This document shows positions 2,786 through 37,692 of a stretch of DNA of 37,692 nucleotides, piece by piece. The notes below the pieces were generated by a model. It was not told the DNA's origin. It was given only the letters and a program-made list of their open reading frames with translations, and searched no databases. This stretch comes from an uncultured Anaeromyxobacter sp. (lineage in GTDB: Bacteria; Myxococcota; Myxococcia; Myxococcales; Anaeromyxobacteraceae), in NCBI GenBank assembly GCA_903874275.1, contig CAIQRS010000033.1, forward strand, positions 1-37,692, in the 5' to 3' direction. Each line of letters opens with the position of its first letter. Within the stretch, counting starts at the first letter, position 1. A program made the translations under genes and the position numbers.

Positions 2786-3706
2786 ATGAAGATCACGAAC
2801 GTCCACAACCTGCCCGCCCCGCTCTTCGATGTGATCGCCAGCGATGAGTACCGCAAGAGCGGCCGCTTCTCCTCCTCCGAGCTGCCGAGCCCGCCGCAGA
2901 TGCGGGTGCTCAAGCTGCGTCACGATGATGAAATCGTGAAGGACGCCTCCGACTTCCTCTGGCTCATCCAAGGCAAGAGCATCCACAAGCTCCTCGAGGC
3001 CAGCTCCGGAACCAACGCCCCGACCGGCCCCGCGGCCCTCGATGACCTGCGCGAGAAGGAGCTGGTCTACGACCTCGGAGACGGCGTCGCCGTCAGCGGC
3101 ACCACCGACCTGTATAACGGCGGCGTGGTCGACTGGAAGGTCACGTCCGTCTGGTCGTTCCTGCTTGGCGGCCTCAAGCCCGAGTGGGAAGCGCAGCTCA
3201 ACACCTACGCCTGGCTCTGGCGCCGGCACGGGTACGAGACGCGCGACCTGGCCATCTACGCGATCCTGCGCGACTGGCAGAAGAGCAAATCCGGCGCCGG
3301 TGACAACTACCCGCCGATCCCGTTCATGCAGATCCCGGTACCGCTGTGGCCCGACCTGCAGGCCGAGGGCTACATCCGCAGCCGGGTCGCCGTGCACCTG
3401 GCGGCCGAGGAGTTGCCCGACGAGGCTCTGCCGCCATGCTCGCTCGAGGACCAGTGGGCCAAGGCGACCAGCTACGCCCTGAAGAAGCGCGGGCAGGTTC
3501 GGGCCGTGCGGGTGTTCGAGACTCGCGAGGCAGCAGACGCCTCGACGACGCCCGGAACCTACATCGAGGAGCGTCCCGGCAAGCGCACGCGGTGCGAGGA
3601 GTACTGCGACGCGCGCCCGTTCTGCCACCAGTTCCTGGCGGAGCATCCCGAGTTGGCCGAGCCGGTGCCCGACGCTGTCGGCTCGCAGACGGAGGCACCC
3701 TACTGA
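2786..3706 (+). CDS. PD-(D/E)XK nuclease, RecB/Cas4-like exonuclease
   Basis: The 306-residue protein shows the nuclease signature in order: a His-containing helix SIHKLLE (about 65-71), GTTDLY with Asp108, VVDWKVTS with Asp116 and Lys118, and QLNTYAWLW (Gln137, Tyr141). These are motifs I-III and the QxxxY motif of the RecB/Cas4 family, which degrades DNA from ends with divalent metal. The C-terminus has CEEYC then C (about 268-278), and an isolated Cys lies near 214; these could ligate an iron-sulfur cluster as in Cas4/AddB-type enzymes. The start at 2786 is preferred to upstream in-frame starts that lie within the previous gene. It probably acts with the ATPase that follows. Confidence 0.8.
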   Translation: MKITNVHNLPAPLFDVIASDEYRKSGRFSSSELPSPPQMRVLKLRHDDEIVKDASDFLWLIQGKSIHKLLEASSGTNAPTGPAALDDLREKELVYDLGDGVAVSGTTDLYNGGVVDWKVTSVWSFLLGGLKPEWEAQLNTYAWLWRRHGYETRDLAIYAILRDWQKSKSGAGDNYPPIPFMQIPVPLWPDLQAEGYIRSRVAVHLAAEELPDEALPPCSLEDQWAKATSYALKKRGQVRAVRVFETREAADASTTPGTYIEERPGKRTRCEEYCDARPFCHQFLAEHPELAEPVPDAVGSQTEAPY

Positions 3707-16732: not shown

Positions 16733-17443
16733 ATGCGGATGCTGCGGACTATCTGCATACTTGCGCTGCTGATGTGTGCCGCGCCCGCGTCGGCGGCGCT
16801 TGAAGTCAATCTGTATCTCGCACCGCAACTCGGGGACGGAACCACCATCGAAACGGCGTACCGCTCATTACTCAACGACTTTGTTCATCCGCAAAATGGA
16901 GAGTGGTTCGATGAGTTGGACAACCCCGTGCGCCATTATTCGATTGTCGTCCTCTACGCCGAACCGGCTACACATCAGGCGATCCAGGCCGACTCACGCG
17001 TAACGCGGTTGATCCCGATGGTGAGCGCCACGGTGGAGCAGGTGCGGACAAATTTTGACACTCCGCTGACATCACTGTTTTCCAGCGGCGCGCTAACCAC
17101 GTTGCGGGCAAGAATCGAGGCGCTCGGTATTGACACCGAATGGGCGACTGCGGCAACGACCATGCGCGATCTGGTTAAGCGCATCTTGCACCAGCACATG
17201 GTCGTGCAACGAACCAACGTAGCCAGAGAAACGGCGCTAGATCGGCTTTACGCTTTGCCTCTGACCGGCACGGTGGCCGACCTGACGGATGCGCAGCGCA
17301 CGGCGGCCAAGGAGTGGATGACCAGAAAGGGGATGCCCACCGCGTGGATTACCACCTCAACGACGGTGCGCCAACTGCTCCGCTATATCATCGAGCGCGT
17401 AAATGCCGAACCGCTGAACGTCGGGCAGGTAGGCACTCAATGA
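16733..17443 (+). CDS. Exported hypothetical protein
   Basis: The 236-residue product begins with a typical signal peptide (MRMLRTICILALLMCAAPAS, then AALE) and a likely AxA cleavage after about residue 21. The mature part is mixed alpha/beta, with a repeated pattern near the end: TDAQRTAAKEWMTRKGMPTA is followed by a Thr-rich stretch and a helix. No family is recognised. The start abuts the previous stop, and the end overlaps the next start. It is one of a series of at least five exported or anchored proteins in this block. Confidence 0.6.
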   Translation: MRMLRTICILALLMCAAPASAALEVNLYLAPQLGDGTTIETAYRSLLNDFVHPQNGEWFDELDNPVRHYSIVVLYAEPATHQAIQADSRVTRLIPMVSATVEQVRTNFDTPLTSLFSSGALTTLRARIEALGIDTEWATAATTMRDLVKRILHQHMVVQRTNVARETALDRLYALPLTGTVADLTDAQRTAAKEWMTRKGMPTAWITTSTTVRQLLRYIIERVNAEPLNVGQVGTQ

Positions 17444-32340: not shown

Positions 32341-32591
32341 TGGCTACCGCGCCAATGACCGAAGAACAAATTCTTTCGCGCCCGTGGTGGCAGAAGCAAT
32401 CAACCTGGGCGCTGCTGCTCGGCATCGCCGGGACGGTGTGCGGATTTGTGCCAGGCGCACAGGTGGCCTCCGCGCCGTTGCTTGCGGTCGCGGGGCTGCT
32501 CGGATTCAAGGGGATCTCGGATCAGCAGACGCGAACCGAGAAGATCGCGGCGGCGAACGCTGCGGCGCTGAAGATTGCGAAGCCCTGCTGA
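32340..32591 (+). CDS. Holin-like membrane protein
   Basis: The 83-residue product has two adjacent hydrophobic helices (WALLLGIAGTVCGFVPG and SAPLLAVAGLLGFKG) separated by a short turn, followed by a charged C-terminal tail (SDQQTRTEKIAAANAAALKI). Size and topology fit phage holins of two-helix type and also the small membrane proteins placed at the end of lysis cassettes. Its stop (32589-32591) touches the first attC-like site, so it is the last phage gene before the cassette array. Confidence 0.55.
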   Translation: MATAPMTEEQILSRPWWQKQSTWALLLGIAGTVCGFVPGAQVASAPLLAVAGLLGFKGISDQQTRTEKIAAANAAALKIAKPC

Positions 32592-32656
32592 TCTGACACT
32601 ATGCGGCGGGCCGGATAGCACAGTATCGCGGCCCGCCTGTTAATCAATTGTTAGAT
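32591..32656 (+). other. attC-like site E, degenerate outer arm
   Basis: The right core GTTAGATGC (32650-32658) is identical to the classical attC end. The left inverse core ATCTGAC (32591-32597) deviates by one base from ATCTAAC but still pairs through a G-T wobble. The middle is a 9-bp GC stem that also reads as a terminator. The arm TTAATCAATTGTTAGATGC resembles the right arm of classical attC sites. It forms the junction between phage lysis genes and the array. Confidence 0.6.
32605..32637 (+). terminator. Convergent-region terminator hairpin within attC E
   Basis: GGCGGGCCG (32605-32613) pairs perfectly with CGGCCCGCC (32629-32637) around a 15-base loop, followed by TGTTAATC. It lies 14 bases after the last rightward gene and just before the end of the leftward operon, so it can end rightward transcription. 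The T-tract is weak. Confidence 0.6.
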
Positions 32657-33090
32657 GCGGAACCAAAGCACCGATGCCACATCACAAGAGACCCAGCCAC
32701 CGCGACGTTGTAGCTCTCCGTCCGCACGCTCTCCAGGCTCACGACGTGCTGGCATTTCCCGAGAATATCTTTCGGCAACCCGTGGTCCTCTGCCCCGAGC
32801 AAATAGACTGCCCGTTCCGGGTGCTTGAATTGCGCAAGCGGTATGCCGCCCATCTCGACCGCAACCAATGGCGCATCATAGGGCCGGGACAAAAGGAAAA
32901 GATCCCACGTCGCGTGCTCCCGAAGCGGAACGTGCCGCCACGTCTTCAGTGTGTCGCTTGCCTGTTTCGGGTAGCGAGCGCCGATGGTAAAGATACCCGT
33001 AGCTCCGAGTTGCGAAGCCGAACGCCAAAGTGTGCCTAGGTTCATCGGCGTCTTGTGGTGATAAATTCCAATCTCAAAATACCCGCGCAT
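32644..33090 (-). CDS. SPOUT-class (TrmH/SpoU-like) RNA methyltransferase, cassette gene
   Basis: The 148-residue enzyme (ATG 33090 behind AAAGGAG; GTG 33093 possible) has the SpoU/TrmH pattern. The start GYFEIGIYHHKTPMNLGTLW includes the Asn-containing motif 1, VYLLGAEDHGLPKDILGKC is motif 2, and ESVRTESYNVAVAGSLVMW is motif 3 of the trefoil-knot SAM site. It is as short as TrmL, so it probably methylates tRNA or rRNA ribose without a separate RNA-binding domain. The last codons (ASNN, stop) read into attC E. RNA methyltransferases are rare in phages of this size. Confidence 0.8.
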   Translation of the reverse strand: MRGYFEIGIYHHKTPMNLGTLWRSASQLGATGIFTIGARYPKQASDTLKTWRHVPLREHATWDLFLLSRPYDAPLVAVEMGGIPLAQFKHPERAVYLLGAEDHGLPKDILGKCQHVVSLESVRTESYNVAVAGSLVMWHRCFGSASNN

Positions 33091-33111
33091 CACAACTCCT
33101 TTCGGAAAAGC

Positions 33112-33163
33112 ATCTAACCCAGCAGTGCATCCGACCTAGCGGCGGCTGACCGCCATGTTAGGC
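33112..33163 (+). other. attC site A
   Basis: Inverse core ATCTAAC (33112-33118) and core GTTAGGC (33157-33163) flank 38 bases including a GGCGG/CCGCC hairpin (33141-33154). The left arm starts CCAGCAGTG, like the CCAGCG of sites B and D, but the extrahelical base is less clear here. ATCTAAC exactly complements TTAGAT at the start of the cassette on its left (32651). It overlaps the stop codon of the C5-methyltransferase-like gene. Confidence 0.75.
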
Positions 33164-33726
33164 TGCAAAACTGCATTACCCCATTGCTCTGCCATCGCGG
33201 TTGCTACGCCTTGATACGTCCTCGATCTTTCACGCCACCTATTCGGCCCCGGTGGCATCCGATGCACTCGCGTCTCCCTTCCGTCAACGATGTCCGTTGG
33301 CACCAGCTTCGGCAGTCCCTTCAGCCACAAGCACGTTGTCTTCGTCTCCCCGTGCCCGAATTGCCACGGCTGAATTATCTGGTCGGGCTTGCGGATTCTC
33401 GTGCTAATGATGCTCACGGGATTCTCCAGACAGATGCGCGGGATCGGTGCAGCGAGAAGATGCTGAACGAACCGAAGGGCTTTTCCTTGAACTCCGCTCT
33501 CCTGCTTCGCCACAAAGTGCCGCGCTCCGCTAACGGCGAGATGTGTGCAGGGAGGGTGTGCGATCATCAAATCCCAAGGGGAGCAAAGAAGATCGTCAAC
33601 ATCCCCTTGGTAGTGGTTTCCAGGCAACTCGCTCGGGAGCAAGTCGCAAGACCAAGACTCATGCCCCAGCCGCGCAAAAGCATCCCGTACCCGTCCGCTG
33701 TATTCACAAGCCACAAGCACTCTCAA
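33136..33726 (-). CDS. Compact C5-cytosine DNA methyltransferase-like protein, cassette gene
   Basis: The TTG start at 33726 is supported by AGGAGG eight bases upstream. The 196-residue protein shows MRVLVACEYSGRVRDAF (motif I-like), WDLMIAHPPCTHLAVSGARH (motif IV with the PPC catalytic loop), ICLENP (motif VI-like) and EQWGNAV (motif X-like). The target recognition domain is very short compared with the usual ~300-400 residues. Such mini-enzymes are frequent in phages and may methylate host-type sites to avoid restriction; activity is not certain. The last residues (QPNMAVSRR) are encoded by attC A. Confidence 0.75.
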   Translation of the reverse strand: MRVLVACEYSGRVRDAFARLGHESWSCDLLPSELPGNHYQGDVDDLLCSPWDLMIAHPPCTHLAVSGARHFVAKQESGVQGKALRFVQHLLAAPIPRICLENPVSIISTRIRKPDQIIQPWQFGHGETKTTCLWLKGLPKLVPTDIVDGRETRVHRMPPGPNRWRERSRTYQGVATAMAEQWGNAVLQPNMAVSRR

Positions 33727-33739
33727 AATATAACCTCCT

Positions 33740-33795
33740 GCCTAACCCAGCGTTGTAGCTGACGGCTTCGCCGCAGCTAAACTTTTATGTTAGGT
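33740..33795 (+). other. attC site B
   Basis: GCCTAAC (33740-33746) and GTTAGGT (33789-33795) flank a hairpin TAGCTG-A-CGGC / GCCG-CAGCTA with an unpaired A at 33762. The left arm CGTTGTAGCTGACGG resembles the classical left consensus CGTTCAAGC.GACG. The site matches site D at 53 of 56 positions. The extra base in the left arm marks the plus strand as the conventional top strand. Confidence 0.85.
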
Positions 33796-34340
33796 TTCAT
33801 AAAAACACACCAATGCGTCTTAGCGTGGTTCCCTGTGTTGTGCCCAAACATCGGAGCGTGTGGCGTCAATGCCAGTACGCGAGAAAGCGGTATTTCGATT
33901 GAACACCATTTAAAAATCAAAATCCCGTTGTCTCGCAGGATACGGAAGCATTCTTCAAACGCCTTCGCCAATTCGCACTCCCAATCCCCGAACAGTTTAC
34001 CGTAAAACTTCCCTAGGTTGCTGCCCTCGCCGAGCTTTTCCATGTGCGGAGGGTCGAAAACGACAAGCGTGAACGTGTTGTCAGGGAACGGCATGTCTGT
34101 AAAATTCCCCTGTACGTCTGGATGGATATGTAACTCCCCGCCATTCGGCCATGCTTTCCCTTTTGGTAGCAGCAGTGTCTCGTCTCTCCGGTCGAAGAAC
34201 AAAGCGCGTTCGTCGTTCTTATTGAACCACATTGCGCGACTACCGCAGGTAGCGTCAAGGACAGGCGGGTAAACTTCGCCCCTCGTCCCCTGAGCCGATC
34301 CACAAGAACTACACTCGCTATCCCCGCACATGCAAGGCAT
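33777..34340 (-). CDS. Class I SAM-dependent methyltransferase, cassette gene
   Basis: The 187-residue product starts behind AAAGGAGGGCAGA. A Cys-rich start (CMCGDSECSSCG) may bind zinc. LDATCGSRAMWFNK is a Rossmann motif I, and VVFDPPHMEKLGEGSNLGKF carries a DPPH variant of the DPPY catalytic motif of amino-methylating DNA enzymes. The helix FEECFRILRDNGILIFKWCS follows as expected. I infer an N6-adenine or N4-cytosine type DNA methyltransferase or close relative. The C-terminal KPNIKV is encoded by attC B. Confidence 0.75.
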   Translation of the reverse strand: MPCMCGDSECSSCGSAQGTRGEVYPPVLDATCGSRAMWFNKNDERALFFDRRDETLLLPKGKAWPNGGELHIHPDVQGNFTDMPFPDNTFTLVVFDPPHMEKLGEGSNLGKFYGKLFGDWECELAKAFEECFRILRDNGILIFKWCSIEIPLSRVLALTPHAPMFGHNTGNHAKTHWCVFMKPNIKV

Positions 34341-34361
34341 TCTGCCCTCCTTTCACAAAAA

Positions 34362-34418
34362 ACCTAACCCGGGCATGAAGCTGACCGCTAGGAGCGGCAG
34401 CTTATGCTTTTGTTAGGC
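34362..34418 (+). other. attC site C
   Basis: ACCTAAC (34362-34368) and GTTAGGC (34412-34418) flank a long hairpin: GCAT, AAGCTG and CCGCT on the left pair with AGCGG, CAGCTT and ATGC on the right. Unpaired G (34377) and A (34384) lie on the left arm only. Two left-arm extrahelical bases are a hallmark of attC structure. ACCTAAC complements TTAGGT at the start of cassette 33790. Confidence 0.88.
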
Positions 34419-34630
34419 TGATAACGATAATGCTGATACGAGAACCACCATGCTTTCCACGCTAGGTATTTGCTTTTCTTCATCCGTCCTCCCTGTGTCG
34501 TCGTCCACCACGTTTCAAATTCACGATGAACGCGGTTCCACTCCCGAACGTGTTGCGCGACGGTCTTCTCTTTTCGCGCGACGGGCTTCTCTTTTCGCAT
34601 GACGACCGAAAGAATTTCGTCGTTAATCAT
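34388..34630 (-). CDS. Small basic Trp-rich hypothetical protein, cassette gene
   Basis: The 80-residue product overlaps the stop of the upstream cassette ORF (34623-34832) by eight bases and begins MINDEILSVVMRKEKPVARK. It is highly basic with several Trp residues (EWNRVHREFETWWTTTQGG, YLAWKAWWFSYQHYRYQPN). No family is recognised. Its last residues (PNKSISCRS) come from attC C. It shares one cassette with the Cys-rich protein, so the two may act together. Confidence 0.45.
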   Translation of the reverse strand: MINDEILSVVMRKEKPVARKEKTVAQHVREWNRVHREFETWWTTTQGGRMKKSKYLAWKAWWFSYQHYRYQPNKSISCRS

Positions 34631-34832
34631 TTTTCAGCACCACATCAACCAGCCGCCCGACGACCTCATCAACCAGCGCGTTGTCGAAAACACAGCACGC
34701 CGGGGCATGTCTGTCGGTTGCCGCGATCACCTCGCATTTCTGATTCGTCAAGGGGCAGACGTTCCTCGGGGCCATATGCGGGCACACCCAAGGAACACCG
34801 TACTTCTTACAGTTACCGCAAACTGGATTCAT
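34623..34832 (-). CDS. Small Cys-rich protein, cassette gene
   Basis: The 69-residue product starts behind AAAGGACGAAG. It contains CGNCKKYGVPWVCPHMAP, CPLTNQKC and CCVFDN, enough ligands for a zinc-ribbon or iron-sulfur site, then an acidic-hydrophobic helix (ALVDEVVGRLVDVVLKND). No family is recognised. It is the first ORF of a two-gene cassette, whose leader from the TTAGGC core to the start codon is only about 34 bases. Confidence 0.5.
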   Translation of the reverse strand: MNPVCGNCKKYGVPWVCPHMAPRNVCPLTNQKCEVIAATDRHAPACCVFDNALVDEVVGRLVDVVLKND

Positions 34833-34860
34833 CTTCGTCCTTTCTGCCGGATCATGAGGA

Positions 34861-34916
34861 GCCTAACCCAGCGTTGTAGCTGACGGCTACGCCGCAGCTA
34901 CACTTTTATGTTAGGC
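34861..34916 (+). other. attC site D
   Basis: GCCTAAC (34861-34867) and GTTAGGC (34910-34916) flank a hairpin with TGTAGCTG (34875-34882), unpaired A 34883, CGGC, a three-base loop, GCCG and CAGCTACA (34895-34902). All twelve pairs are perfect. It is the best-formed site and nearly identical to site B. Beyond it there is no further attC, so it is the outer edge of the array on the helicase side. Confidence 0.88.
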
Positions 34917-35035
34917 TGCAAAACATAATCAATCATTTCATCTATCCAATCAAGTACCGCGTTCGCAGTCGCCAGTGGTCGTCGACAAAGCATCGACAGA
35001 AACCCGCGCTTCCCGCAGTGCCGCGAGGCGGGCAT
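34898..35035 (-). CDS. Small ORF ending in attC D
   Basis: A 45-codon ORF (ATG 35033-35035) encodes MPASRHCGKRGFLSMLCRRP then LATANAVLDWIDEMIDYVL and ends QPNIKV in attC D, the same phase in which all other cassette ORFs read their attC. The second half looks like a real amphipathic helix. No ribosome-binding site is visible, and the first part may be phage DNA fused to a cassette remnant at the insertion boundary. Confidence 0.4.
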   Translation of the reverse strand: MPASRHCGKRGFLSMLCRRPLATANAVLDWIDEMIDYVLQPNIKV

Positions 35036-35062: not shown

Positions 35063-35287
35063 CTAGCCATTATGGCGCCGATGCCAGCGGTTAAAGATTC
35101 GGCGCAGGCAATACGAGCGGGCCAGCGATACCGCCGTGAAGATCACGCCGATTGCGATATTCTGCGACAGCCGCACCGGGACGCCGAGCAGCGGGAAGAC
35201 GATGAGCTGTGTTGCCAGCGCGACGAAATAGCCGACGGCGACGTTGGTGATGCTCTCGATTGCGGAGTGGCGGCGGGATTGGGTCAT
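35063..35287 (-). CDS. DUF7220-like small membrane protein
   Basis: The start ATG at 35287 overlaps the methyltransferase stop (ATGA). The 74-residue product, MTQSRRHSAIESITNVAVGY then FVALATQLIVFPLLGVPV, IAIGVIFTAVSLARSYCLRR and a basic C-terminus, matches the layout I recall for the DUF7220 family of phage and prophage proteins: two membrane helices and a final RSY.LRRIF pattern. Its function is unknown; such proteins often lie near replication or methylase genes. Confidence 0.65.
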   Translation of the reverse strand: MTQSRRHSAIESITNVAVGYFVALATQLIVFPLLGVPVRLSQNIAIGVIFTAVSLARSYCLRRIFNRWHRRHNG

Positions 35288-36243
35288 AGCAGCGTGCCTT
35301 GCGAACCGTCCGACTTGCCTTCGGCCGCGCTCGCGACGTTCTTCACGGCCTGCCGGTAATACGACGGCTTGAGTTCGACACCGATCCCGCGCCGGCCGGC
35401 GCACACGGCCCCGTAAATCTCCGACCCGACACCCATGAACGGCGTCAACACGTTCTCGCCGGGGTTGCTCCAAAGGACCATCACGCGGTCGATCACGTCC
35501 AGTTGTAGCGGATGAACGTGCTTCTCGTCTTCCGAATCCCGCGCCGCCTTGAACGGCAACACGCGGCCAATGCGGATGTCATCCCAAAAAGCCGAAGCGT
35601 ACTGTCTCCAGATCCAATGCGAATAGCGGTTCTCGATCTGGTTGCCGGTCCAGCCGCGGTACTTCTGAATTTCAACGGGCATCTTCCGCTCGCCGGCGTA
35701 TTCCAGCAATCCGACAGGATGAGCGATCGGAACCGTGTTTGCGCCAGCACGGCGAAATACCAGTAGGTAGTCGGCGCTCGCCACACTGCACCGGGACGAA
35801 TCTTCAACGACGGTTTTATGCGCAAGGTTCTTCGCCATCGTCCGGTTGCGCACGCCAAGTGGTTCTTTCCAGATCGCGTAACGAGCGATGAATCTGAATC
35901 CGTTCTTTTCGTGCAAGCGGATAATGTCGCCGGGGAAATCAACCAGATGATCGCAACCACAATTCCCGCTCGGAACGTCCATGCAATGCACGGCCGTCAT
36001 GCGGCCCGGCATCGTCAAGCGGGCAATACCCGTAACAACAAAAGCGTAGTGTTCGAAGAACTGGTCATAGTCCCGACAGTTCGACAGGTCACGCTCGTTG
36101 CTGCTGTAGTGGTACAGGCCGCCAAAGGGCGGGGAGTACACCGACAGATGAATGCTCTTGTCGGGCAGGGTCGCCATAACCTCACAGCAATCCCCGTTGT
36201 ACAGCGCGTAACGGTCGGTGACTTCTTGGGAAATTACAGCCAT
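35284..36243 (-). CDS. N4-cytosine/N6-adenine DNA methyltransferase (beta class)
   Basis: The 319-residue enzyme starts behind AAGGAGG, located in the end of the helicase gene. The catalytic motif VYSPPFGGLYHYSS (SPPF, residues 37-40) precedes the SAM-binding motif VLTPFMGVGSEIYGAVCAGR (about 267-286), an order typical of beta-class amino methyltransferases. A middle region (about 130-230) would be the target recognition domain. It overlaps the helicase gene by ten bases. The pairing with an SNF2-like helicase is frequent in phages and suggests protection or remodelling of phage DNA against host restriction. Confidence 0.88.
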   Translation of the reverse strand: MAVISQEVTDRYALYNGDCCEVMATLPDKSIHLSVYSPPFGGLYHYSSNERDLSNCRDYDQFFEHYAFVVTGIARLTMPGRMTAVHCMDVPSGNCGCDHLVDFPGDIIRLHEKNGFRFIARYAIWKEPLGVRNRTMAKNLAHKTVVEDSSRCSVASADYLLVFRRAGANTVPIAHPVGLLEYAGERKMPVEIQKYRGWTGNQIENRYSHWIWRQYASAFWDDIRIGRVLPFKAARDSEDEKHVHPLQLDVIDRVMVLWSNPGENVLTPFMGVGSEIYGAVCAGRRGIGVELKPSYYRQAVKNVASAAEGKSDGSQGTLL

Positions 36244-37610
36244 GACGGGACAACCTCCTTTGTGAGAAATTTATTTGACCTATCGAGCGATATGCTCTTG
36301 TTCATGTGAGCGACGAGCGACGAGAACATTGCATCAGCGGCGGCGGCTTTTCGTTGTAGGTTCTTCATGACGCCAAGGCCGCCCTCGGTCGTGATAATGT
36401 CAACCGTCACCGGGTTTTTCTGCCCGAAGCGCCAGCACCGGCGCACTCCCTGATAATACTGTTCGAATGAATGGGACGGGAAAAACGTGACGTGCGCACA
36501 GTGCTGGAAATTCAAACCCCATGCGCCGATCTTTGGCTTTGTGACGAGGACGCGGATTTCGCCGCGGGAGAACGCGAGGAACTTTTCTTCCTTCGATTCG
36601 TCGGAATCCGACCCGCTGACCTGGACAGCGCCGGGAACCAGTTTCGCCAGAAGATCGCCCTCGGGGTTGAGGTGGCACCACATCAACGCGGGCTTTCTGG
36701 TATCGGCCACGAGAGACGCGGCCATCTCGCACCGCTCGGTCAGCGTGCGCCGCATTTCCTCGCGCTGTTCGTGCAGCCCTTCGGCCGGCAACGAAAAGAG
36801 AAATCCATCGGGGAGCGAGTTTGACCTGACGATATGCTCGCGCTCTACCAGTGGCGGCAGGACAAACTTTCCGTCCTCAAAGCCGAAGTCAGACGGCTTG
36901 CGGATCGCCCGCGCCCACGATGCTACCCACCGCCAGTATGGTATTTCGGCGTGACCCTTGAAGCGCCATTTCGGGTCCATGCCGCCGTGCGCCCGCCATT
37001 TCGTCTTTGTGTCGCTGGTGTTCTGGTCGTTCTTGAAAAAGCGGTTAAGCATATCCATGTGCCCGAGGTCGCCAAGGGCTTCGCTGCTGGTGCCGAGTTC
37101 CACGTAATCATTCGGGGCGGCGGTCGCCGTGGCAAGCAAGCGATACGGCATCTTTTTCATAAACTCGGTTATTTCGCCGCGGCGGGCCCCATCGTAGCTT
37201 TTCAGGATGCTCGACTCGTCCAGCACGACGGCTTGAAAATCAGACGGATTGAAGAAATGCAGCCGTTCGTAGTTCGCCACGTTGATTCCGGCGTGCAATT
37301 CTCCGGCGTGCGAGCGATGGCATTCAATCCCGAACTTCTCGCCCTCGGTGACGGTCTGGTGCGCTACGGCCAGCGGAGTCAGAATCAGCACGCGGCCATT
37401 TGTTTCACGCACAACGTTCTCGGCCCACACGAGCTGCATCGGCGTCTTCCCGAGGCCGCAGTCACCGAACAGGGCGCCGCGGCCCTTGCGTACAGACCAA
37501 TCGACAAGCGAGCCTTGGAAGTCGAAAAGGAAGCTCGGAATCCACGGCGATTTAAAGCCGCGCATTTCTCCGAGGTGCGTTTTCGATTCGATGAACTGCT
37601 GATAGTCCAT
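36234..37610 (-). CDS. SNF2/DEAD-like helicase
   Basis: The 458-residue protein starts at ATG 37610 behind AGGAGG; an upstream in-frame start at 37637 lacks a good ribosome-binding site. Motif I GDCGLGKT (49-56), motif II DESS (131-134, a DExx variant), motif III LLATATAAPNDYVELG (about 158-173) and motif VI QYYQGVRRCWRFGQ (about 400) identify a superfamily 2 helicase of SNF2/DEAD type. The central region (about 180-260) is insertion-like. It heads the leftward operon and is coupled to the methyltransferase gene. The 5' end lies in the contig-closing repeat, so the gene is complete on the circle. Confidence 0.85.
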   Translation of the reverse strand: MDYQQFIESKTHLGEMRGFKSPWIPSFLFDFQGSLVDWSVRKGRGALFGDCGLGKTPMQLVWAENVVRETNGRVLILTPLAVAHQTVTEGEKFGIECHRSHAGELHAGINVANYERLHFFNPSDFQAVVLDESSILKSYDGARRGEITEFMKKMPYRLLATATAAPNDYVELGTSSEALGDLGHMDMLNRFFKNDQNTSDTKTKWRAHGGMDPKWRFKGHAEIPYWRWVASWARAIRKPSDFGFEDGKFVLPPLVEREHIVRSNSLPDGFLFSLPAEGLHEQREEMRRTLTERCEMAASLVADTRKPALMWCHLNPEGDLLAKLVPGAVQVSGSDSDESKEEKFLAFSRGEIRVLVTKPKIGAWGLNFQHCAHVTFFPSHSFEQYYQGVRRCWRFGQKNPVTVDIITTEGGLGVMKNLQRKAAAADAMFSSLVAHMNKSISLDRSNKFLTKEVVPSWL

Positions 37611-37692
37611 TAACCCCTCCTGTTTTATGGTTGACATCCGCGCACAATCTACTATAATAAAAAAACAATTGCAATAGAAAATATTTGTTGAC
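37574..37692. repeat. Terminal direct repeat, right copy
   Basis: This is an exact copy of bases 1-119. It contains the helicase start codon and the AT-rich divergent promoter region up to the rightward -35 box. One copy should be removed to obtain the circular genome. Confidence 0.95.

Follow-up and report, generated by a model that had tools for sequence, protein, structure and literature searches.

Integron gene cassettes without an integrase in a circular phage contig, probably exchanged between phages

How integron gene cassettes come to lie in a phage genome that carries no integron integrase is the question raised by contig CAIQRS010000033.1 of assembly GCA_903874275.1 (uncultured Anaeromyxobacter sp.), whose full 37,692 nucleotides are called the window here. 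The window is a circular phage contig with a G+C content of 0.62, and its phage genes include those for terminase, portal, major head, connector, helicase and primosomal proteins; no close relative was present in the phage collection searched. A first-pass annotation of the sequence had claimed a circle, and the contig indeed closes via a 119-bp terminal direct repeat. It had also read one stretch as integron cassettes within a phage genome, which proved to be the right reading, as judged from the covariance matches and from a cassette that has different neighbours in an unrelated phage (G145, a viral contig of 56,843 bp, IMGVR_UViG_3300037424_001259). We propose that the stretch is a phage-borne cluster of attC sites lacking an integron integrase (CALIN), whose cassettes were inserted by the integrase of a host and exchanged between phages (probability about 0.85).

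attC sites and cassettes of the array

Rfam holds no attC family and gave zero matches in the window. A covariance model (R1) was built from ten bacterial attC sites (class 1 cassettes, one Gallionellaceae metagenome-assembled genome (MAG) and one Acidobacteria MAG) and zero phage sites, and the window was searched with filters off. R1 reached 53.2, 46.2, 23.9 and 23.3 bits (E 7e-11, 4e-9, 1e-3 and 1e-3) at four sites, all of which scored higher on the plus strand than on their own reverse strand, and at most 12.8 bits in the rest of the 37.7-kb window. The covariance check proposed in the first-pass annotation thus gave significant matches. The same four are the complete RYYYAAC...GTTRRRY sites of the window. 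When folded, each formed an imperfect hairpin bounded by the R'' (RYYYAAC) and R' (GTTRRRY) boxes, and the extrahelical bases lay on one arm, with class 1 spacing in most sites. The only other loose pair of such boxes at attC spacing (16870-16921) was found within a coding region. The sites and the left edge of the array are as follows.

32605-32640, no strand: GC-rich, terminator-like hairpin (GGCGGGCC...GGCCCGCC) immediately left of the array and after the last rightward gene; 10.7 bits as attC
32650-32656, plus: left boundary, lone core box G|TTAGAT on the attI- or secondary-site side, no attC; identity to the unrelated phage G145 starts here
33112-33163, plus: attC1 (ATCTAAC...GTTAGGC); R1 23.3 bits on plus vs 10.4 on minus
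33740-33795, plus: attC2 (GCCTAAC...GTTAGGT); R1 53.2 bits, E 7e-11; near-identical attC in phage contig G155
34362-34418, plus: attC3 (ACCTAAC...GTTAGGC); R1 23.9 bits on plus vs 21.3 on minus
34861-34916, plus: attC4 (GCCTAAC...GTTAGGC), right end of the array; R1 46.2 bits on plus vs 13.6 on minus

Judging from their sequence, the four sites appear to be genuine integron attC sites. Five attC-like sites had been claimed earlier, and the fifth, at the left edge (32591-32656), was rejected: it scored 10.7 bits (E 1.6) and consists of the GC-rich hairpin followed by the lone GTTAGAT core. Of the span given for the array, 32591-34916, the right end holds and the left end does not; the array proper extends from 32650/32651 to 34910/34916. 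The count of four cassettes was correct, the four attC sites and the lone core dividing the stretch as listed below.

32651-33157, no strand: cassette 1; core TTAGAT pairs with ATCTAAC; counterpart 86% identical in G145 (48557-49071)
32644-33093, minus: cassette 1 gene, SpoU/TrmH-family RNA methyltransferase, 149 aa; Pfam PF00588, E 1e-19; 97% identical in amino acids in G145
33158-33789, no strand: cassette 2; cores TTAGGC / GCCTAAC
33136-33726, minus: cassette 2 gene, phage-type DNA methyltransferase (phrog_757, E 7e-69) with a TTG start after AGGAGG
33790-34412, no strand: cassette 3; cores TTAGGT / ACCTAAC
33777-34340, minus: cassette 3 gene, phage-type DNA methyltransferase (phrog_954, E 4e-59); C-terminus ...MKPNIKV within attC2
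34413-34910, no strand: cassette 4; cores TTAGGC / GCCTAAC; 5' leader common to a G145 cassette
34623-34832, minus: first gene of cassette 4, open reading frame for a 69-aa Cys-rich small protein, AAAGGA start; no family match
34388-34630, minus: second gene of cassette 4, open reading frame for an 80-aa small protein; no family match
34898-35000, minus: putative remnant of the end of a further cassette-type gene (...AVLDWIDEMIDYVLQPNIKV), truncated upstream; GTTTTGCAGCCTAAC in common with the 3' ends of the cassette 2 gene and the outermost cassette of G145

The matching of cores had been put forward as the key evidence for cassette recombination. The matching is real, as the four starts (TTAGAT, TTAGGC, TTAGGT and TTAGGC) all pair with the inverse core of their own attC. 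However, a full match is obtained in 2 of the 24 permutations of AT, GC, GT and GC (p about 0.08), and core matching gives no information on strand. The covariance model and the cassette common to an unrelated phage are the stronger evidence.

Shine-Dalgarno sequences were found in eleven cassette leaders of the two best arrays. The cassette 2 gene has a relative in Burkholderia phage Bcep1 (69% at the nucleotide level), and phage contig G156 has a 47% relative of the cassette 3 gene, likewise in a cassette; no attC accompanied the homologues of this gene in viral contigs L003-L008. A 69% relative of the cassette 1 methyltransferase is an ordinary gene of another phage contig without attC (L026, 5990-6453).

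A cassette common to two unrelated phages

The SpoU cassette of G145 is 97% identical in protein and 86% identical in DNA to cassette 1 of the window. When the two phages were aligned with flanks, the identity rose from about 35% to about 90% at the core G|TT (32650) and dropped again at the R' box of attC1 (33157-33163). The neighbours of this cassette are different, phage DNA in the window and another attC in G145. Cassette 1 is a gene cassette in the sense that it recurs in another context and is bounded at the crossover point. R1 found seven attC sites in G145, each higher on the plus strand, and attC3 was 98% identical over 54 bp to one of them (50238-50291), the two adjoining different genes. 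Beyond cassettes and attC sites, the window and G145 have in common just a weak 72-residue primosomal match. The comparison of related phages for empty or differently filled sites, as proposed earlier, was thus borne out for cassette 1, which has different neighbours in an unrelated phage, but it did not yield a relative with an empty site. We consider it very probable that the cassettes were exchanged between phages by site-specific recombination.

The 32-bp 5' leader of cassette 4 (34839-34870) recurs with 97% identity in a different cassette of G145 (48110-48141). A common leader of two different cassettes suggests that leaders are exchanged, or conserved, separately from genes.

The array occupies the interval where the rightward genes, which end at 32591, meet the end of a leftward operon, whose annotated genes upstream of the array include the following.

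35284-36243, minus: phage N6/N4 DNA methyltransferase, the next clearly annotated gene of the leftward operon; PF01555, E 3e-13
36234-37637, minus: phage helicase, with which the leftward operon ending in the array begins; phrog_62, E 6e-53

Exact attC2 and attC4 patterns gave zero matches in viral contigs; a looser, orientation-neutral pattern scan found three further attC-bearing viral contigs (G155, G156 and G157). We also re-analysed MW202573, a phage of Qi et al. 2023 with a complete deposited genome, in which there are five attC sites. Five of the six phages (the window, G145, G155, G156 and MW202573) carry their array at or close to the 3' end of an operon convergent with the late genes; for the sixth, G157, the sequence is a fragment of 6 kb next to terminase genes.

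At the 3' end with respect to the genes, the arrays of the window, G145 and G156 have a lone core adjoining non-attC DNA, and a full attC is found at the opposite end. Recombination of attC with a secondary or attI-like site would be expected to leave this layout. In G145, the flanks joined without the array would read CTCTTGG|TTAAAATCG, which, on sequence, would re-create a stop codon and, after it, a ribosome binding site at the normal distance from a start codon. The right flank of the window was considered as the other half of an empty site and dropped, as the common GTTTTGCAGCCTAAC ending favours a truncated further cassette; the sequence beyond 34916 on the right resembles the 3' end of such a cassette. 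Therefore, the argument for a secondary site rests on G145 and not on the window. GTTTTGCAGCCTAAC is common to three cassette-type gene ends of differing genes (33157-33176 and 34911-34925 in the window; 47473-47492 in G145).

A mechanism can be proposed as follows. The cassettes would enter as circles, through recombination of attC with an attI-like or secondary G|TT site (the left boundary at 32650), presumably catalysed by the integron integrase of the host cell during infection. Forming the tail of the leftward operon, they would be expressed with it, each from a ribosome binding site of its own, and would supply optional phage genes, above all DNA methyltransferases, which, to judge from their family, may guard the phage genome against host restriction. 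Unrelated phages would exchange cassettes on meeting in integrase-bearing hosts, the cargo passed on comprising methyltransferases, RNA ligase and small genes of phage type.

Gene polarity relative to attC and alternative explanations

In bacterial cassettes, gene and attC are read on the same strand. In the window, by contrast, the attC sites have plus polarity and every cassette gene is encoded on the minus strand, a feature that the first-pass annotation had missed. Antisense attC sites were found in six phages, at 22 of 22 model-found sites (window 4, G145 7, G155 2, G156 2, G157 2, MW202573 5). The gene strands of MW202573 were those annotated in its record, those of the bacterial array were checked, and the second site of G155, with an unclean fold, has its strand from the model alone. 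Polarity was also assessed without the model, by comparing the number of unpaired bases in the arms, read along the coding strand. In the phages, they lay on the 3' arm in 17 of the 22 sites and on the 5' arm in one, four being undecided, whereas in the comparison set they lay on the 5' arm in 19 of 19 (18 bacterial sites and one of phage TJE1; Fisher p 1e-9, with sites not fully independent). The sense orientation of gene to attC, which is typical of cassettes and not strictly defining, is therefore absent from the window and the five other phages. Since TJE1 is sense, the antisense rule is not universal for phages.

The bottom strands of attC are reported to be the recombinogenic ones (PMC9892861), and an attC bottom strand on the lagging-strand template is reported to lead to more excision (PMC11023631). 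An antisense attC would put the recombinogenic strand on the coding strand, which would be the lagging-strand template if replication follows the operon; this might favour mobility, although it is a guess. We lean slightly towards the view that phages hold a cassette pool of their own, apart from the bacterial one, with phage-type cargo, antisense attC sites, insertion at or close to the 3' end of an operon convergent with the late genes, and cross-phage exchange by any host integrase.

Alternatively, the array may be part of a bacterial integron, brought into the phage by illegitimate or homologous recombination, with cassettes that are now immobile. The integrase is absent, the same type of attC is found in bacterial arrays of Gallionellaceae and Acidobacteria MAGs, and illegitimate recombination has been suggested for phage arrays by Qi et al. 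2023 (PMC9892861). However, the bacterial cassettes examined are sense and those of the window antisense, with phage-type cargo; one cassette is found in two unrelated phages, where its boundaries run exactly from core to core and its neighbours differ; and the arrays of five phages have a similar genomic position. Such an origin is thus unlikely.

The antisense polarity could itself be merely apparent, if a lineage-specific attC type had the additional unpaired bases in the opposite arm, with genes that are in fact sense. The attC strand was derived from model scores and folded structures, which leaves room for this explanation, but a near-identical left half (CCTAACCCAGCGTTGNAGC) is carried by the coding strand of bacterial arrays (L035, L039) and by the non-coding strand in the phages, and the model and the bulge test concur. 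We regard an apparent polarity as improbable.

Misassembly of metagenomic contigs with repeats in common could produce common cassettes. The window, G145, G155, G156 and G157 are metagenome-derived or draft contigs, and attC repeats can mislead assemblers. Nevertheless, the samples and assemblies are independent, the common cassette is 86% and not 100% identical, the window closes as a circle, and the same architecture is present in the complete deposited genome of MW202573, all of which makes this explanation very improbable. Finally, that the repeats are terminators, REP-like elements or other intergenic phage hairpins resembling attC, as their intergenic, hairpin-forming nature and the terminator kind of the left-edge hairpin (32605-32640) might suggest, is largely refuted by the significant covariance matches, the conserved extrahelical bases at attC spacing, the matched cores, and the exchange of the SpoU cassette, which is differently neighboured in G145 with identity confined between the crossover points.

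Integrase, host and relation to known systems

A profile search for the integron integrase (cut-off 265 bits) gave no hit above the cut-off in the window or in the rest of its assembly, nor was an integron integrase found in the searched phage contigs. The same profile was positive in the control genomes G153 and G154; it gave 498 bits beside the Gallionellaceae array and found four integrases in the Acidobacteria MAG. Since it detects true integrases, its failure to find one elsewhere carries weight, as far as draft genomes allow. The statement of the first-pass annotation that the circle lacks integrase and attI therefore stands, the left boundary being a lone core. With four attC sites and no intI in the phage or its assembly, the array is a CALIN and not a complete integron, which would have intI and attI. 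The chromosomal integrase candidates of the assembly were rejected as other tyrosine recombinases (best scores 82 and 79 bits, in pieces).

Several points weigh against the proposal that a host integrase inserted the cassettes and that they moved between phages. The R1 scores of attC1 and attC3 are modest, and the two strands of attC3 score nearly equally (23.9 vs 21.3 bits). An empty-site relative of the window phage was not found in a search via a structural protein, and a search via a flank gene of G145 gave no relative with an empty site either. The integron integrase was not found in 145 genomes of the order, and the other 23 searched genomes of the family had no attC. Since neither the assembly nor the genomes of the order have an integrase and those of the family have no attC, the bin may not represent the host.

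A second contig of the assembly, C255, carries attC sites at 3042, 4590 and 6788 (L060, 2387-6884) in sense bacterial cassettes, whose cargo comprises a nucleotidyltransferase/HepT-like pair, an oxidoreductase and a CPBP-like protein. The window contig and C255 may be binning contaminants, and the host assignment of the bin is doubtful. Within the same class, a single integron integrase was found (G151 contig 14, L034), with no recognisable attC array in the 20 kb around it.

CALINs in phages are known: 17 were reported by Qi et al. 2023 (PMC9892861), with IntI1 recombination for five of six phage attC sites, including sites of TJE1, P12002L and PH101. The arrays of that study (TJE1, P12002L, PH101 and MW202573) resemble the window in their integrase-less attC clusters, DNA methyltransferase cargo and R/L box anatomy. 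The earlier claim that a phage can serve as a vehicle for cassettes is thus supported, and its novelty was overrated. The text of Qi et al. 2023 gives typical orientation for TJE1 and PH101 and divergent sites for a third phage, and makes no mention of antisense genes, cassettes common to unrelated phages or a recurrent array position; in our analysis, MW202573 is antisense and TJE1 sense. No other literature on antisense phage cassettes was found, subscription papers and figures lying outside the scope. Integrase-less phage attC arrays, methyltransferase cargo and IntI1-competent sites were therefore already known; what goes beyond them is the cassette common to G145, the antisense genes and the recurrent position.

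Cassette insertion at non-classical attG sites in bacterial chromosomes has been described (Loot et al. 2024, Nat Microbiol, as cited in PMC12444791). The layout here is the one that such an insertion would be expected to leave, with a lone G|TT core in non-attC DNA at one array end and a full attC at the other; the attG sites are in bacterial chromosomes, whereas the present arrays are in phages and their empty site is inferred, most cleanly for G145. Class 1 and sedentary chromosomal integrons are alike in cassette anatomy, matched cores and attC type, the nearest attC types being those of the Gallionellaceae and Acidobacteria MAGs. Unlike them, the array of the window has no integrase or attI, its genes are antisense to attC and its cargo is phage-type.

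If the proposed reading is true, integron integrases provide phages with a modular system of gene exchange, beyond occasional accident, and the occurrence of one cassette in two unrelated phages is direct evidence, by comparison, that phages exchange them. A consistently reversed polarity would indicate that phage cassettes have another origin or are under other selection, and it makes testable whether the choice of attC strand is tuned to replication or transcription. The phage methyltransferase cassettes would be the natural counterpart of the anti-phage defence genes recently reported on bacterial cassettes.

Among the further phage contigs, terminase-like genes were present in G145, G155, G156 and G157 and portal genes in G155, G156 and G157, and among the cargo are an RNA ligase (phrog_14301), a DNA methyltransferase and the relative of window cassette 3. 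The near copy of attC2 lies in G155, with a G+C content of 0.48 vs 0.62 for the window. G155 is probably circular, since its contig ends overlap by about 145 bp. A hairpin repeat, TAACAAAAAGCTCACCCGCTTGTCGGGTG, occurs twice beside the G155 array (L081, L068; about 1100-1135 and 59440-59480) and is perhaps a degenerate or unfamiliar attC type.

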